64,000 nucleotides of DNA from Thermostichus lividus PCC 6715 (GTDB taxonomy: Bacteria > Cyanobacteriota > Cyanobacteriia > Thermosynechococcales > Thermosynechococcaceae), in NCBI RefSeq assembly GCF_002754935.1, contig NZ_CP018092.1:2462501-2526500 (forward strand), written 5' to 3'. The notes below the pieces were generated by a model that did no database searches, had not been told where the DNA came from, and saw only the letters and a list, made by a program, of their open reading frames with translations. This document shows, in pieces, positions 1 through 6,024 of this stretch. Position 1 is the first letter of the stretch, and every line of letters starts with the position of its first letter. The position numbers and the translations under genes are program-made.

Positions 1-1047
1 CTGTCACCGGTGCCACGGGCTGCTGTTGTGGGGTTAGGGAAGCTCAGCTTGTACGTGCTGTTTTTTGCTTTGGCAGAGCGGGTGATGCGTGATGAGCGGT
101 GGCGATCGCGCCTGCTGACGGTTTATTTGTTAACGGCTTTAGGGGTGAGTGTCGAAGCTATCCGGCAGTGGCTGTTTGGGGCAGAGCCGCTGGCCACGTG
201 GACGGATCCGGAGTCGGCGTTGGCAAATGTGACCCGGGTGTATAGCTTTTTAGGAAATCCCAACCTGTTGGCAGGATATTTATTGCCCAGTGTGCCTTTG
301 AGTGCGGCGGCGATCGCGGTGTGGCGGGGCACATTACCGAGGGTTCTTGCAGTGGTGATGCTGGGGATGAATACGGCTAGCTTGATATTGACCTTTAGCC
401 GGGGTGGCTGGCTGGGGTTGGCTACCGCCACGATTGTTGGTGTGGGGCTGCTGGGGTTTTGGTATTTACCGCAATTACCCTATCGGTGGCGGCGCTGGGG
501 AGTGCCCCTCCTGCTGGGACTGTTGGTGGCTACTTTGGTGGGGAGTGTGGTGAGTGTACCAGCGTTGCGGGAGCGAGCGGGCAGTATTTTTGCTGCGCGG
601 GGAGACAGTAGCAATAATTTCCGAATTAATGTGTGGATGGGGGTACAGCAAATGATTCAAGCGCGCCCGTGGCTGGGGATTGGCCCCGGGAATGTGGCGT
701 TTAATCAAATTTATCCGCTGTACCAAGTCAATGTACGGTTTACGGCGTTGAGTGCCTACTCGATTTTTTTGGAATTACTGGTGGAAGTGGGCGTGATTGG
801 GTTTGGCGTTTTCCTGTGGTTATTGCTGTTGGTGGGCGATCGCGCTTGGCAATGTTTAGGCCAATTACGTGCTAGGAACAATCCTCAAGGGTTTTGGCTG
901 ATGGCAACGGTGGCCACAATGGCGGGAATGCTGACCCATGGCTTGGTGGATACGATATGGTTTCGCCCGGAGGTTGCAACCCTATGGTGGCTAATGGTGG
1001 CGATCGTGGTTAGTTTTGTCCCCCAACAGGAAAATGCTGCCTCCTGA
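1..1047 (+). CDS. IctB/O-antigen ligase-like polytopic membrane protein (5' end outside window)
   Basis: The frame is open from the first base, so the N-terminus lies outside the window. About 348 residues remain, against roughly 450-470 for cyanobacterial IctB-like proteins. The sequence is a series of hydrophobic segments. Motifs typical of the Wzy/O-antigen ligase (PF04932) fold are visible: SRGGWLGL at about residue 130, and WLGIGPGNVAFNQIYP in the large loop near residue 220. IctB was first described as a bicarbonate-accumulation protein, but the fold is that of glycan ligases, so the substrate cannot be told from sequence. The gene ends about 390 bases before the DnaA-box cluster. No obvious terminator follows it. 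Confidence 0.8.
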   Translation: MSPVPRAAVVGLGKLSLYVLFFALAERVMRDERWRSRLLTVYLLTALGVSVEAIRQWLFGAEPLATWTDPESALANVTRVYSFLGNPNLLAGYLLPSVPLSAAAIAVWRGTLPRVLAVVMLGMNTASLILTFSRGGWLGLATATIVGVGLLGFWYLPQLPYRWRRWGVPLLLGLLVATLVGSVVSVPALRERAGSIFAARGDSSNNFRINVWMGVQQMIQARPWLGIGPGNVAFNQIYPLYQVNVRFTALSAYSIFLELLVEVGVIGFGVFLWLLLLVGDRAWQCLGQLRARNNPQGFWLMATVATMAGMLTHGLVDTIWFRPEVATLWWLMVAIVVSFVPQQENAAS

Positions 1048-1104
1048 TACCTCAAGGCAACCGGCCAAGTAAAGGGGGATTTATTTGTACTAAAGATTTT
1101 TGAG

Positions 1105-1353
1105 TTAGTCCTGTTGCCACTCTTGAAGACCTGCCGTAACGGCCGAACCTTGATCGTGCCAGCCACAGTGGGAGCAGTGGCACTGGCCAAGGGCAACATT
1201 GGAATGATGGATGGGTTGTCGACATTCGGGACAGCGCCCGGTGAAGTAAGGATGGTGCATTAGCATCCGAATTTGCTCAACAGGGGATAGGTGGCCAATA
1301 ACTTGTTCGAGTGTGGCCGATTGACCATCGACGTATGACATCAGGGAATCCAA
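1105..1353 (-). CDS. Small zinc-ribbon protein of unknown function
   Basis: This is an 82-residue protein with two Cys pairs, CPEC near residue 39 and CSHC near residue 56, spaced as in a zinc ribbon. The N-terminal 35 residues look helical. A second possible start is the Met at residue 5. It converges with the IctB-like gene and its 5' end lies about 90 bases from the first DnaA box. I do not recognise a named family. The Cys spacing suggests nucleic-acid or protein binding, but this is inference. Its position beside the candidate origin may be chance. Confidence 0.6.
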   Translation of the reverse strand: MDSLMSYVDGQSATLEQVIGHLSPVEQIRMLMHHPYFTGRCPECRQPIHHSNVALGQCHCSHCGWHDQGSAVTAGLQEWQQD

Positions 1354-1439
1354 ATAACTGACGAAATTTAAGCGATGAGGTCATCGTGAATTCAGTATGG
1401 CGGCGATCGCCCCGATGGGGGAATCGTAAAAATACGGAA

Positions 1440-1742
1440 AATCCTTGCGCCAACCTGTGGAAAACTCCAAAAAGCCTGTGGAAAAATCTGGGGAAAATCT
1501 GGGGAAAACTATAGAAAAACTCTGGAAAATTGTGGAAATCTTTTTATTCTTTTATTAAGCATTTAATCGCCTGTGGAAAACTACCCAATTTTTTCCACAG
1601 GTTTTCCACAGGAATGAATAGGCTCAAACCAAGTCAGGGTCAGGGGTTTACTATGTTTTTCCACATTTTCCACAGCCCCTACTACTACTATAAGAATATT
1701 TATAAGATCAGTAGTAGTAGAGATCTTAGAGATCTACGATAA
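1440..1742. other. oriC: Candidate chromosomal replication origin (oriC): DnaA-box cluster, DnaA-trios and AT-rich element
   Basis: Perfect TGTGGAAAA or TTTTCCACA nonamers lie at 1456-1464, 1477-1485, 1572-1580, 1591-1599, 1602-1610, 1657-1665 and 1666-1674. Near-matches are at 1489-1497, 1500-1508, 1521-1529 and 1531-1539. TTTTCCACA is the known cyanobacterial DnaA box. The last two boxes are in direct tandem and are followed by GCCCC, then four CTA triplets (1679-1690), then an AT-rich run to about 1708. This box / GC-rich spacer / CTA triplet / AT-rich order is the basal unwinding module (DnaA-trio, 3'-GAT-5' on the lower strand) described in Bacillus. No plausible gene lies here. Neither dnaA nor dnaN is in the window, and strand skew could not be computed. 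Confidence 0.8.
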
Positions 1743-1788
1743 AAAGTTCTGAAAAGAGGAAATTAAGCTAGGGAGCACTACACACCCC

Positions 1789-1935
1789 GGTTCACGGAAA
1801 GGGCTGATCAACCCTAAACATCCGTAAATAGCTACCAAAAGGTAAATGGCAGCCAAAGGGTTCTAAAACAGCCAAGAAGCAGGGTGAACCCATAAAGCTA
1901 GGGGATTTATCCTTCATGCCCTTTAGGGGGCTTTT
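1789..1935 (+). ncRNA. Candidate structured RNA between origin and arsA-like gene
   Basis: GGTTCAC (1789-1795) is perfectly complementary to GTGAACC (1884-1890) and would close a domain of about 100 bases. Inside it are AGGG/CCCT (1800-1803 with 1812-1815, 8-base loop) and TACC-AAAA-GGTA (1833-1844). After the domain, GCCC (1918-1921) pairs with GGGC (1928-1931) followed by TTTT, a weak terminator-like hairpin. I tried tmRNA, RNase P, SRP and 6S signatures and saw none. It could be a small RNA, the 5' leader of the arsA-like gene at 2027, or chance pairing. Confidence 0.3.
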
Positions 1936-2026
1936 AAGGGGATTCTGTGGGGCGCTAAGGGGAGTGTTCTATTGAACGTTTGCCGATACCATAGTCCAAG
2001 TACTACCCATCTCTTTCTAGGCTTCC

Positions 2027-3127
2027 ATGACACGCATTGTCACTTTTTTAGGGTCAACCCCAGAGCAGCAAACGGCTCTTGGTCTAGCGGTTGCTCAGTG
2101 GTTTGCTGAACATCAGCAACGAACCCTCTTGGCGTTGCCAGCACCGGCAACCACATTGCAGTATTTAATTGGTGATGTATATAAAGAAACTGGGTCTCAA
2201 GCGGTATCTGTTGGCGATCGCCTTTGCGTAACACAACTGTTTGCTACTCAAAGCTTGGATATGGCTTGGGATGATCTCAATCGCCTTGTGGAGTCCTATT
2301 TACCGCCGGAGCTGGTCGGCAAGGTCTATGCGGGTGAACTGATGATTTTGCCTGGTATGGATATGCTGTTGACCCTAAATGCCCTACGGGTCTATTACAG
2401 CAGTGGCGAGTACGATGTGATTGTTTACGCAGGTGCGAATAGTCGAGATACGTTGCGGTTGATAGGATTGCCTCAAGGACTGGCTTGGTACTATCGCCGG
2501 TTTCGCCGATTGTTAGAGCAACTGGATATTAACAAAATTGCGACTGCTATGGGTGGGCCGATCGCCAGCGCCATTATGGCTGCGAACATTGATACCCAAA
2601 AAATTAATGAGCGACTTGCCCAAGCCAAGGAATGGGTGGATCGCGGTGTGACGATTGCTTCAGATGGGCAGCGGCTATCGGTATTTTTGCTAACCAGTCC
2701 TGCCGCGCTTGAGATTGCCCAGACGCAATGGTTGTGGGGGAGTGCTCAACAGGTGAATGTGCCGATTTCTGAGGTATTTTGTTTGGGAGAGGCAACCCCT
2801 GATGTCAATCAAGCCTTTGCACCGTTACGGATTTCAACCCTCCCGACCGACCTTAGAGCTTGGCAGTCCCTTGTACCCAGCTTGCCTGACTTTAACAACC
2901 TAGCGAGTGCCCCTGCTCCCCACGAATTTGATGAGGTGCAACAGCAGGTACGTATTTTTCTGCCCGGGTTTCGCAAGGAGCAAGTAAAGCTCAGTGAGTT
3001 TAGCGGTGAGTTAACGGTCGAGGCAGGAGACCAACGCCGCCACATTGAACTGCCCCCCAGCCTTAAGGGAAAACCTGTGCAGGGCGGAAAGTTTGAAGCA
3101 CCCTACTTGATTGTGAACCTATCTTGA
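2027..3127 (+). CDS. ArsA/GET3-like protein with degenerate P-loop and C-terminal HSP20-like domain
   Basis: The 366-residue protein has the layout of cyanobacterial ArsA/Get3 ATPase paralogues: an N-terminal deviant Walker domain and a C-terminal alpha-crystallin-like strand-rich segment from about residue 305 (QQVRIFLPGFRKEQVKLSEF). The N-terminus, where the family carries a GKGGVGKT-type P-loop, reads FLGSTPEQQTALGLA. The signature Lys residues and most glycines are missing, so ATP hydrolysis is doubtful. Family members sort tail-anchored proteins or arsenite, and this one may be a non-catalytic partner. The stop codon TGA (3125-3127) lies within the terminal TTGA of the adjacent IS element. 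Removing the IS restores TAA at the same codon, so the protein is unchanged. Confidence 0.75.
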   Translation: MTRIVTFLGSTPEQQTALGLAVAQWFAEHQQRTLLALPAPATTLQYLIGDVYKETGSQAVSVGDRLCVTQLFATQSLDMAWDDLNRLVESYLPPELVGKVYAGELMILPGMDMLLTLNALRVYYSSGEYDVIVYAGANSRDTLRLIGLPQGLAWYYRRFRRLLEQLDINKIATAMGGPIASAIMAANIDTQKINERLAQAKEWVDRGVTIASDGQRLSVFLLTSPAALEIAQTQWLWGSAQQVNVPISEVFCLGEATPDVNQAFAPLRISTLPTDLRAWQSLVPSLPDFNNLASAPAPHEFDEVQQQVRIFLPGFRKEQVKLSEFSGELTVEAGDQRRHIELPPSLKGKPVQGGKFEAPYLIVNLS

Positions 3128-3592
3128 CATACTCCCCCTGCCTAAAGGCAGAGGATTCTTGTTCTTGGTTCTGCGAGCGCACTTACTTCATCAGGTTTCC
3201 CCTCTAAAGCAGCGGTGCATCTCTCCCCAAGCGTTCCCCCTTGCGGGGCGGTTCCCTTATGCCCTAAGGTACCGTTTTGCCACTCCATTCCCAAGATGTT
3301 TAGTCCCTTCTTGAGGATGTTCAGAGCTGCGTTCTGGTCTCTGCCCATCTCAAACCCGCACTTAGGACAACTATGAGTTCTAGTGGATAGGGTTTTCACG
3401 ACCCTATGCCCACAGTTACTGCAATCCTGCGTGGTGTACTGCGGCGGTACGCTGACTACTGCCTTGTCCCATACCTTACCGTAGTAGTCTAGCCAAGCAG
3501 TGAATTGAGACCAGCCAGCATCATGGATGGATTTGGCAAGATGATGATTCTTGACTAGGTTCTTCACCTGCAAGTCCTCATACACCACGACA

Positions 3593-3619
3593 AAGCGCTC
3601 CGCGCCGCCAAAGGCGAAC
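3593..3619. repeat. 27-base short dispersed repeat, type A, inside tnpB copy 1
   Basis: The insert begins AAGCGCTCCGCGCCGCC and ends AAAGGCGAAC. It is present at the same codon in copy 3 (62674-62700) and absent from copy 2. It resembles the type B insert (4050-4076) in its AAG..CTCCG..CCGC..CGAACG framework, so both seem to belong to one short dispersed repeat family. It causes the frameshift in tnpB. Confidence 0.7.
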
Positions 3620-4049
3620 GTTAGATGCCACTACGCACCGAGCAAGCTTGATTGCCCAGTCTTTACGTTGGCGTTGCACTTTCAGATGTACTTTGCCTAG
3701 TCGCTTTCTTTGCTTGTGGTAGTTCTTAGATTGGGATTTTGCCCCTTTCTTGAACTTCCGACTTAACCTGCGTTGGTGTTGCTTTAACCTCCGTTCACTA
3801 CGTCTTAAAAACTTAGGACAATCGACCGTGTTTCCGTTCTGGTCGGTGTAGAAGTGTTTTAACCCCAAGTCAATACCGATGACATTGCCTGTGTATTGTC
3901 CTTGCTCTTTGCGCTCTACATCCAAGCAGAATTGAGCATAGTACCCATCTGCTCTGCGTACCACTCGCACTCGGTTGATTTTAGAGTTGAGGATATGCTG
4001 TCTTGCCTCTCCATTGCAGTACAAGGCAAATGTACCTGCATTGAAGCCA

Positions 4050-4076
4050 AAGGACTCCGTCCCGCTTACGCGAACG
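4050..4076. repeat. 27-base short dispersed repeat, type B, inside tnpB copy 1
   Basis: The insert begins AAGGACTCCGTCCCGC and ends TTACGCGAACG. It replaces a TCA present in copy 3, a net gain of 24 bases, in frame, adding VRVSGTES to the protein. The copy 3 reading (FTDGFNAGTF) fits what I recall of the usual cyanobacterial TnpB sequence, so the insert is probably the derived state. The same insert is in copy 2 at 9655-9681. Confidence 0.7.
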
Positions 4077-4563
4077 GTGAAGGTGATGGACAGTCCATCC
4101 GCTGATAGCTTCCAACCCGATAGCTTGTACTCTACAGAGCGGCAGTGCTTCTTGAATTTGGGGTATCCCTTCTTTGCCTCCTTGTTCTTGCAGTTGGTAT
4201 AGAAGCGAGAAATGGAAGCCCAAGCTCGCTCTGCACTTGCCTGCCTTGCCGCTGAGTTTAACTTTTTAGCAAAATCAAACTCTTGAGCCAAGGTTTTGCA
4301 GTGGGCATAGAGGTCATTCCTGCCCACACCACGGTTGTCCATCCAGTACCGTACACACTTGTTGCGCACAAACTGTGCGGTACGGATGGCTTCGTCCAGA
4401 GACTGATATTGCTCCTGTGTGCCCTTTAGCTTGGCTTCTATGACTCTCATGGTTCCATTTTATCACAGACTCAGCTTGATAAAACAATATGCGCCTTATA
4501 TCCCCATAGCTAAAGCTAGGGGCTTTACGGCATTTTTCGGTAAGCCATGCAACAAAAGGGGGG

Positions 4564-5859
4564 TTACGGTTCGATTCGCAGGCGGACAGAGTCGCGATGG
4601 GAGATGAGACCCTCGGTTTCGGCAAGGGTTATCACGGCTCCCCCCTGTTTCAGTAGGGCAGCAGGGGTGTACTGAATAATGCTGGAATGTTTGAGGAACG
4701 TTTCCACCCCTAGAGCAGAGGCATAGCGCGCAGAGCCGGAGGTGGGTAAGGTGTGGTTGGGGCCGGCAAGATAGTCACCGACAGCTTCGGGGGTGGCATA
4801 GCCTAGAAAAATAGCTCCGGCATGGCGCACCCGTTCCACAAGGCTCCATGGATCGTCAACTTCTAGTTCGAGGTGCTCGGGAGCGAAACTATTGGAGAGG
4901 TCGATGGCCTGCTCTAAGCTCTCAACGATGCCAATGAGGCCGTAGTGGGCGATCGCCTTCTCGGTGAGGAGGCGGCGAGGATGATCCGTAAGCTGGTCAT
5001 TGACTGCAGCAACGACTGCTTGAGCGAGGTGCAGACTGGGGGTAAGGAGAATTGCGGCCGCTAGGGGATCGTGTTCCGCTTGTGCTAGCAGATCGGCGGC
5101 AATGTGAACGGGATGGGCATATTCATCCGCAATAATGAGGACTTCCGATGGGCCTGCAAGGGAATCAATGCCAACGCGACCATACACCTGTTTTTTGGCC
5201 AGCATGACGTAGAGGTTGCCGGGGCCGGTGATCACATCAACGCGGGGAATCGTTTCTGTGCCGTAGGCAAGGGCAGCAATGGCCTGCGCCCCACCCACCC
5301 GGTAAATTTCCTGAATCCCTGCTTCTTGGGCGGCAACCAGCACTGCTGGACTAACCCCCTTGCCTTGGCCGGGAGGGGTGACCATGACAATACGCTTGAC
5401 CCCAGCAACTTGGGCGGGCACGGCATTCATGAGCACGGTACTGGGGTAGGCGGCTCGACCTCCGGGGACGTAGAGACCCGCGCTATCAACCGCGGTATAG
5501 CGTTTGCCAAGCACAATGCCATCTTCCCCAAACTGCACCCAGCTTTTGGGCACTCGCTGCCGATGGAACGCTTCGATCTGTTGCTTAGCAAGACGGATGG
5601 CATCGAGTAATTCTTTCGAGACTTGCTGATAGGCAGCGTCTAGTTCATCCCCTTTAATTCGTAGTGTTTCTGGGGTCAGGTCAACGTGGTCAAAGGTGCT
5701 GGTGTATTCAATGAGGGCGCGATCGCCCTCGGCAGCTACCCGCTGAAGGATTGTCGCAACGGTGGCGTGTTGCTGGTTCATCTCGCTACTGTCGGTGCGA
5801 TCGCAAATGCGGCGCAGTTCAGCGCGTAGGTCTGTTAACTGAGTGATGATCCGCAACAT
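4564..5859 (-). CDS. hisD: Histidinol dehydrogenase
   Basis: The 431-residue length is normal for HisD, which oxidises L-histidinol to L-histidine in two NAD-dependent steps in the cytoplasm. Family blocks are clear: SLAGPSEVLIIADEYAHP in the middle, the metal-site context AEHDPLAAAILLTPS, and the C-terminal FLGYATPEAVGDYLAGPNHT. The start ATG at 5859 gives the usual MLRIITQLTD opening. The gene converges on the arsA-like/IS locus and stands alone, with no other his gene nearby, as is common in cyanobacteria. Confidence 0.95.
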   Translation of the reverse strand: MLRIITQLTDLRAELRRICDRTDSSEMNQQHATVATILQRVAAEGDRALIEYTSTFDHVDLTPETLRIKGDELDAAYQQVSKELLDAIRLAKQQIEAFHRQRVPKSWVQFGEDGIVLGKRYTAVDSAGLYVPGGRAAYPSTVLMNAVPAQVAGVKRIVMVTPPGQGKGVSPAVLVAAQEAGIQEIYRVGGAQAIAALAYGTETIPRVDVITGPGNLYVMLAKKQVYGRVGIDSLAGPSEVLIIADEYAHPVHIAADLLAQAEHDPLAAAILLTPSLHLAQAVVAAVNDQLTDHPRRLLTEKAIAHYGLIGIVESLEQAIDLSNSFAPEHLELEVDDPWSLVERVRHAGAIFLGYATPEAVGDYLAGPNHTLPTSGSARYASALGVETFLKHSSIIQYTPAALLKQGGAVITLAETEGLISHRDSVRLRIEP

Positions 5860-6024
5860 GGTCGTTCACGTAGGGCAAGGCTGAAACAGGGGCAAAGGTT
5901 AAAAAACCTTAATCAACCCTATTACTAGCTTACAGTGATTTCTTAATTGCAGGGGCGGCTTACCCATCCCCTCAGGGCGCCCCACTCGTGAGCAATCGGG
6001 TTGTGACTGTTTCTAGGGAGGTGG

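Follow-up and report, generated by a model that had tools for sequence, protein, structure and literature searches.

Background

The closest described relatives of the locus treated here are origins of the basal unwinding system (BUS) type, in which a DnaA box lies within 16 bp of at least three trios of the form NAN (PMC8287927). The DnaA of S. elongatus was reported in 2021 to unwind its cognate BUS, a box-trio scaffold, in vitro (PMC8287927). For T. elongatus BP-1 a putative chromosome replication origin (oriC) has been predicted that comprises 12 DnaA boxes and is flanked by genes of unknown function (PMC4674748), and certain cyanobacteria replicate without DnaA-oriC (PMC7198777). How two helicases, one per strand, are placed at a bacterial origin was stated in 2023 not to be understood (PMC10721633); later models concern B. 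subtilis, with DnaD and DnaB (PMC13326638), and E. coli (PMC13220808). Here we describe a very probable BUS-type oriC of the heat-loving cyanobacterium Thermostichus lividus PCC 6715 which carries, beyond its AT-rich core, a second trio array on the other strand facing the first one (the facing array). It lies at about C1:2464000, in a window of 64,000 nucleotides (the whole stretch analysed, C1:2462501-2526500) taken from a single contig of 2,659,739 bases, that is, a 2.66-Mb chromosome.

We give a probability of roughly 0.6 to the reading of this locus as an oriC where the facing array is a second single-strand DnaA docking site, so that there would be one helicase docking point per strand. 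The origin itself belongs to a known kind, the BUS-type oriC, and the facing array is, as far as our literature search reached, a new variant on it. This search, limited to open-licence PMC papers (subscription papers and preprints lay outside it), found no description of facing trio arrays, and the available excerpts of PMC8287927, PMC10721633, PMC6669920, PMC10201434, PMC10316083, PMC13220808 and PMC13326638 do not mention them; those of PMC8287927, PMC6669920 and PMC10721633 mention only a one-sided BUS. An initial annotation of the window had proposed an origin with a Bacillus-like order at this place and held that the cyanobacterial case would be informative. The BUS order is indeed present; its occurrence in a cyanobacterium is not new after the S. 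elongatus work of 2021 (PMC8287927).

Results

DnaA boxes, trios and facing array

The region consists of the following features, each given with its basis in brackets:

1456-1464, 1477-1485, 1572-1580 (exact) and 1489-1497, 1500-1508, 1521-1529, 1531-1539 (one mismatch), minus strand: left-pointing DnaA boxes, spanning 1456-1580 (box scan; genus conservation)
1591-1599, 1602-1610, plus strand: two right-pointing exact DnaA boxes (box scan; genus conservation)
1657-1665, 1666-1674, plus strand: tandem DnaA boxes of the BUS (box scan; box/spacer/trio pattern in 31/58 genomes)
1675-1678, plus strand: GC-rich spacer GCCC (sequence)
1679-1690, plus strand: left DnaA-trio array, four CTA, equal to 3'-GAT-5' trios on the minus strand (sequence, conservation)
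1691-1709, no strand: AT-rich unwinding core separating the arrays, its sequence and length variable (genus alignment)
1710-1720, minus strand: facing (inverted) trio array AGTAGTAGTAG, three TAG units, equal to 3'-GAT-5' trios on the plus strand (inverted-repeat search; genus conservation)
1721-1742, no strand: segment with GATC to the right of the facing array (GATC enrichment in the genus)

Scoring both strands for the exact DnaA box TTTTCCACA, we found seven occurrences in 219 bases (1456-1674), three of them left-pointing (starts 1456, 1477, 1572) and four right-pointing (1591, 1602, 1657, 1666). The initial annotation was therefore right in counting seven perfect boxes in about 220 bases, as it was in placing the last two in tandem before a spacer, four CTA triplets and an AT-rich stretch (1657-1709); it mentioned neither the four further left-pointing boxes with one mismatch (1489, 1500, 1521, 1531) nor the inverted array AGTAGTAGTAG at 1710-1720. 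Out of 2000 dinucleotide shuffles of 1440-1742, 1980 contained no box and 20 contained one, and never was there more than one. Elsewhere in the window there is one additional exact box (45181), and among the 32 exact boxes of the genome the cluster at 1456-1674 is the sole group with more than three close together. Boxes counted with one mismatch allowed, which number 19 over the entire window for 15.9 expected, are not enriched; the signal lies in the clustering.

Read 5' to 3', the two abutting boxes (1657-1665 and 1666-1674) are followed by GCCC (1675-1678), CTACTACTACTA (1679-1690), TAAGAATATTTATAAGATC (1691-1709) and AGTAGTAGTAG (1710-1720). There is thus a box, a 4-bp spacer and four trios, as the definition of a BUS has it, and an AT-rich unwinding element (1691-1709) adjoins the box/trio unit, as in an oriC. 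The facing array AGTAGTAGTAG repeats the CTA array in inverted orientation, without mismatch over 11 bp and at a distance of 20 bases. Its three TAG repeats (1712-1720, TAGTAGTAG) are on the plus strand and the box-proximal trios on the minus strand.

Conservation in the genus and origin identity

By genus we mean the window's own, Thermosynechococcus in the wide sense, with 11 members; the core sequence is the same in the Thermosynechococcus loci L047, L048 and L059 and in the genus members L026, L027 and L031. The box/spacer/trio order was found in all 11 members, and in 31 of 58 related genomes, our own included, the reversed control giving 0 matches. A slightly different pattern matched 165 of 388 genomes of the class, against 11 for the reversed control (counted from a table), at least four of the 165 (L071-L074) being without an origin-like box cluster, at least at the place first listed. 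In the genus alignment (11 sequences, that of L023 partly masked on its left side), at least 10 of the 11 sequences agree in 80% of the columns at 1452-1541, 86% at 1570-1612 and 89% at 1656-1690.

The facing array is present in 11/11 members, with three to five TAG units each, at a distance of 19 to 28 bases from the CTA run. Each of its 11 columns is the same in 10 sequences or more, compared with 42% in the core, 32% at 1721-1742 and 25% at 1743-1900. It is as conserved as the DnaA boxes, while the core and the downstream DNA drift. Since it is kept while the core and the next 22 bases vary, the facing array looks as if it were under selection.

The DnaA of this genome is intact (475 aa, TTG start as called) and matches B. 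subtilis DnaA 8btg with E = 5.8e-137. It keeps the equivalents of I190, I193 and R264 of B. subtilis (alignment to 8btg, positions counted by hand), that is, the residues for single-strand binding and the arginine finger which go with a BUS. With the conservation of the pattern in cyanobacteria and of boxes and trios in the genus, this supports the origin identity and the Bacillus-like order that had been proposed, and the assignment of the region 1440-1742, from its sequence, as a putative chromosome replication origin of BUS type is well supported in kind.

Facing arrays in other cyanobacterial genera

We then consider the genera outside the window's own, each with one representative (64 genera; the set of 93 sequences covers 65), taken from the places listed by search patterns blind to the right side. 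Left out were L071-L074 (no box cluster) and L006, L010 and L019 (no match to the pattern of the script); L010 is a match away from the G054 origin, which was taken as L111, and L019 carries a facing AGTAGTAGTA after an interrupted left array, so that its omission lowers the count of facing arrays. In these genera the A+T content is about 0.9 at +18 to +29 from the trio start. TAGTAG occurs at +12 to +70 in 6 of the 64 (shuffle mean 0.7, largest of 200 shuffles 4), and its reversed, direct and complementary forms, GATGAT, CTACTA and ATCATC, occur right of the trios in 0/64. Runs of three TAG or AAG units are found in 7/64 (mean 1.1, largest 6; reversed control 2/64) and runs of two units in 25/64 (mean 13.0, largest 21; reversed control 14/64, mean 11.9). 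The purine share is 0.39-0.49 at +12 to +29, against 0.57-0.67 at +30 to +71. As 58 of the 64 genera are without TAGTAG there, the facing array is not universal: certain lineages have strict facing trios, and in the majority these are weak or lacking.

The tetranucleotide GATC was also counted in and next to the unwinding core (1688-1769 of the window and the corresponding place in the relatives). There are 24 occurrences in the 11 sequences of the genus (shuffle mean 3.0, largest 8) and 78 in the 64 other genera (shuffle mean 17.8); the excess is smaller when flanking DNA is taken as reference (17 per kb at +0 to +50, 3-11 per kb elsewhere). The unwinding element of E. coli also holds GATC sites.

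Facing arrays in other phyla

A scan of named genomes which required both arrays gave 28 loci, showing spread and not frequency. They are named cyanobacteria, Acidobacteria, Dictyobacter and Thermogemmatispora (class Ktedonobacteria), Thermus, Poribacteria, Riflebacteria, Sumerlaeota, a deltaproteobacterium and one "Tatlockia" bin; this last locus (L036) resembles L054 and L056, both cyanobacterial, and is perhaps misbinned. At least three DnaA boxes lie within 400 bases on the left in 26 of the 28, the exceptions being L046, cut by a contig end, and L050, with one box.

In the Ktedonobacteria a search blind to the right side matched 34 of 47 genomes and gave ten convergent box and trio pairs about 57 bases apart, besides Thermogemmatispora L046. 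We took 20 places and tested 19 of them (L216, without boxes, was dropped), ten of which had been picked because the facing match was already visible. A facing TGTGGA box core is found right of the trios in 17/19 origins (shuffle mean 0.33), and the unit TAGTA, spacer, TGTGGA in 15/19 (shuffle mean 0.01): the ten picked origins have both, and among the nine others the box core occurs in 7 and the unit in 5. L217 and L218 are without a facing box. These origins thus present mirror-image BUS units round one AT-rich core, and in several of them the boxes are in tandem on either side; the D. aurantiacus locus adjoins dnaG and a sigma-70 gene.

Within the Acidobacteriota, in the class of the Pyrinomonadaceae (Blastocatellia), 34 of 98 genomes matched, 30 of them as loci, and 29 were tested after L228, without boxes, had been dropped. 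TAGTA occurs right of the trios in 18/29 (shuffle mean 6.9, largest 13), and TAGTAAAA, a form selected post hoc, in 12/29 (shuffle mean 0.53).

Two viral contigs also matched. In the IMG/VR phage contig L260 (6910-6949), which has SU10-like portal and capsid genes, a host-origin-like sequence of DnaA box, spacer and facing trios stands directly after the capsid gene. The second, L259, is without a box cluster.

Neighboring genes and other features of the genome

The neighbors of the origin were searched in ten genus loci, the window's own included; these loci extend only 1500 bases leftward, which bears on the count of the third gene:

2027-3127, plus strand: ArsA-type ATPase with HSP20-like domain, conserved right neighbor (tblastn match in 10/10 genus loci tested)
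1105-1353, minus strand: conserved open reading frame of 82 aa without Pfam match, left neighbor (9/10 loci; the exception, L023, holds masked N)
1-1047, plus strand: O-antigen ligase family (Wzy_C) gene, far left neighbor, 5' end outside the window (8/10 loci)

At 3142-4450 (minus strand) an IS605-type OrfB transposase (Pfam match at 3578-4450) overlaps an adjoining frame (3142-3588) and looks split into two frames. The genes dnaA and dnaN do not adjoin the origin (dnaA match at C1:494-976, dnaN match at C1:1271436-1271789). No parS site was found in the window with up to three mismatches allowed, and no similar plasmid sequence was found. A second small cluster (C1:651571-651877, L252) contains three exact DnaA boxes in the same direction and degenerate ones; no trios being seen there, we rejected it as a second origin, and it is perhaps a DnaA-titrating or regulatory site.

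Discussion

A possible role for the facing array

Starting from what was computed (the motifs and their conservation, the presence of DciA, the lack of a PF07261 match and the mirror-image BUS units of the Ktedonobacteria), we infer the firing of the origin, the binding of DnaA to the facing array, the looping, the role in helicase loading and every step on the right side. DnaA would fill the box cluster 1456-1674 and, as in the BUS of Bacillus, extend from the tandem boxes (1657-1674) onto the minus strand trios (the complement of 1679-1690), melting the AT-rich core. The opening of the bubble would expose the facing TAG array (1710-1720) as single-stranded trios of the plus strand, to be gripped by DnaA held at the box cluster, probably through looping from the left-pointing boxes; we favor looping because no box was found on the right in the window strain (see below). 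Each strand would then have DnaA at the edge of the bubble, which would be held open, and the DnaB helicase with DciA would find a docking point on either strand, one for each fork. An array without adjoining box can be bound, as T. maritima shows: three TAG repeats placed in an oligo-dC oligonucleotide were sufficient for binding to the complex of DnaA and box cluster, and two repeats were not (PMC10316083). All the genus members reach this number of three. DciA is present in this genome and the DnaD/DnaB(2) family PF07261 has no match in it, which makes the route through the DnaD recognition element (DRE) of B. subtilis unlikely here.

More tentatively, and with a little less than an even chance in our opinion, this may be one case of a two-sided origin, where facing arrays put DnaA on both strands of the bubble and direct one DciA-DnaB helicase to each. 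The mirror-image BUS pairs of the Ktedonobacteria and the reduced, trio-only forms (Thermosynechococcus, some other cyanobacteria, Acidobacteriota) would then be versions of a single, widely shared way of loading in both directions in bacteria that lack DnaD. The conserved opposite-strand array and the facing BUS pairs of the Ktedonobacteria make the placement of helicases on each strand directly testable in other bacteria, and the facing array may help to explain how bacterial replication starts in two directions simultaneously. It is also a signature for locating origins in those cyanobacteria whose GC skew is uninformative.

Several observations weigh against a second docking site within an active oriC. 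In the window strain, the interval from 45 to 545 bases right of the trio start yielded no DnaA box. Nine of the 11 genus members (L023-L029, L031, L128) have a pair of weak TGGGGAAAA sites pointing left, spaced 21 bases apart and some 220-275 bases away from the trio start; neither the window strain nor L030, the relative closest to it in ArsA identity, has them. Outside the genus the excess of TAGTAG is small, with 58/64 genera lacking it; in the Acidobacteriota class the reversed ATGAT is also somewhat frequent (4/29, mean 1.5), and all the shuffle tests count related sequences as independent. The array could equally serve as the arm of a hairpin. Finally, the GC skew, named in the initial annotation as a check, gave no usable signal: over 40 stretches of our own genome (39 of 10 kb and one of 20 kb with 5000 bases N) and 60 kb of the window, there is no clear two-state pattern, and the weak best switch is at about 1.5 Mb and not at the origin candidate, with a small drop in the sum of squares, from 328 to 300. 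In the 15 kb that can be read to the left of the window the skew has a negative sign, and over the window's first 10 kb a positive one, but this pattern is not maintained. We thus rejected GC skew as a confirmation of the origin; by the refuting condition of the initial annotation it counts slightly against it, and replication may depend only partially on this origin.

Alternative explanations

The main rival takes the locus for an ordinary BUS origin and its facing array for a hairpin arm only (stem CTACTACTACT/AGTAGTAGTAG), which would form in the single-stranded core as a structural or single-strand initiation signal. The perfect inverted repeat agrees with this, as a repeat of at least 11 appears in only 21 of 5000 shuffles of 1675-1742; the predicted DNA fold is modestly better than that of shuffles (z = -1.93, 8 of 200 shuffles folding as well), and in two of three members of one other genus (g30) the complementary CTATCTAT/ATAGATAG extend outside the trio repeats. 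Covariation was tried as a means of separating hairpin from trios in the genus, where it is uninformative because both arms are trio repeats and near invariant. In the Ktedonobacteria, though, the second array is accompanied by facing DnaA boxes and a spacer of its own, unneeded by a hairpin, and these boxes speak against the hairpin as a general explanation. So do the arms in the genus, where the right run varies from three to five TAG and the left one is four CTA in 10/11 members and three in L023, and the form enriched in Acidobacteriota, which is the short TAGTA/TAGTAAAA. On the whole we consider the hairpin unlikely as the sole function of the array.

Less probable still is that the right array has no DnaA role, being a mere accident due to common ancestry or the target of another factor (transcription, methylation). 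The enrichment of GATC beside it and the many genera without TAGTAG would fit; an accident is hard to reconcile with an array kept throughout the genus while the surrounding bases drift, or with the recurrence of the arrangement in records named cyanobacteria, Acidobacteria, Ktedonobacteria, Thermus, Poribacteria and others, and no Rfam family matches window 1-6000. That the region is an inactive relic or a DnaA regulatory cluster, replication being DnaA-independent or starting from many sites, is very improbable: the irregular GC skew with its weak best switch, the distant dnaA and dnaN and the cyanobacteria replicating without DnaA-oriC (PMC7198777) would allow it, but a relic would decay, whereas the pattern is in 11/11 genus members with boxes and trios conserved, and DnaA is intact.

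Comparison with known systems

The predicted oriC of T. elongatus BP-1 resembles this locus by its DnaA-box cluster between genes of unknown function (PMC4674748); that paper mentions neither a trio nor a facing array, the words "trio" and "inverted" having 0 occurrences in its main text. The BUS of B. subtilis and that of S. elongatus share with it the tandem DnaA boxes, the GC-rich spacer, the repeating 3'-GAT-5' trios and the AT-rich DNA; what differs is that here a second trio array on the other strand faces the first. The extended trio (eTrio) of T. maritima also has three TAG repeats without adjoining box, bound as single strand by the DnaA of the box cluster (PMC10316083), but here the extra array lies beyond the AT core and on the strand opposite the box-proximal trios, not on the same strand. 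Like the facing array, the DRE of B. subtilis is a feature of the strand opposite the trios and has been proposed to place helicase there (PMC10201434); unlike it, the DRE has the motif TnnT and is recognized by DnaD. In E. coli oriC, the left and the right DnaA subcomplex are, as would be the case here, two oppositely oriented DnaA assemblies tied to two helicases (PMC13220808, PMC10316083); the E. coli pair forms on duplex boxes at one side of the unwinding element, whereas the pair we propose would form on two trio arrays facing each other.
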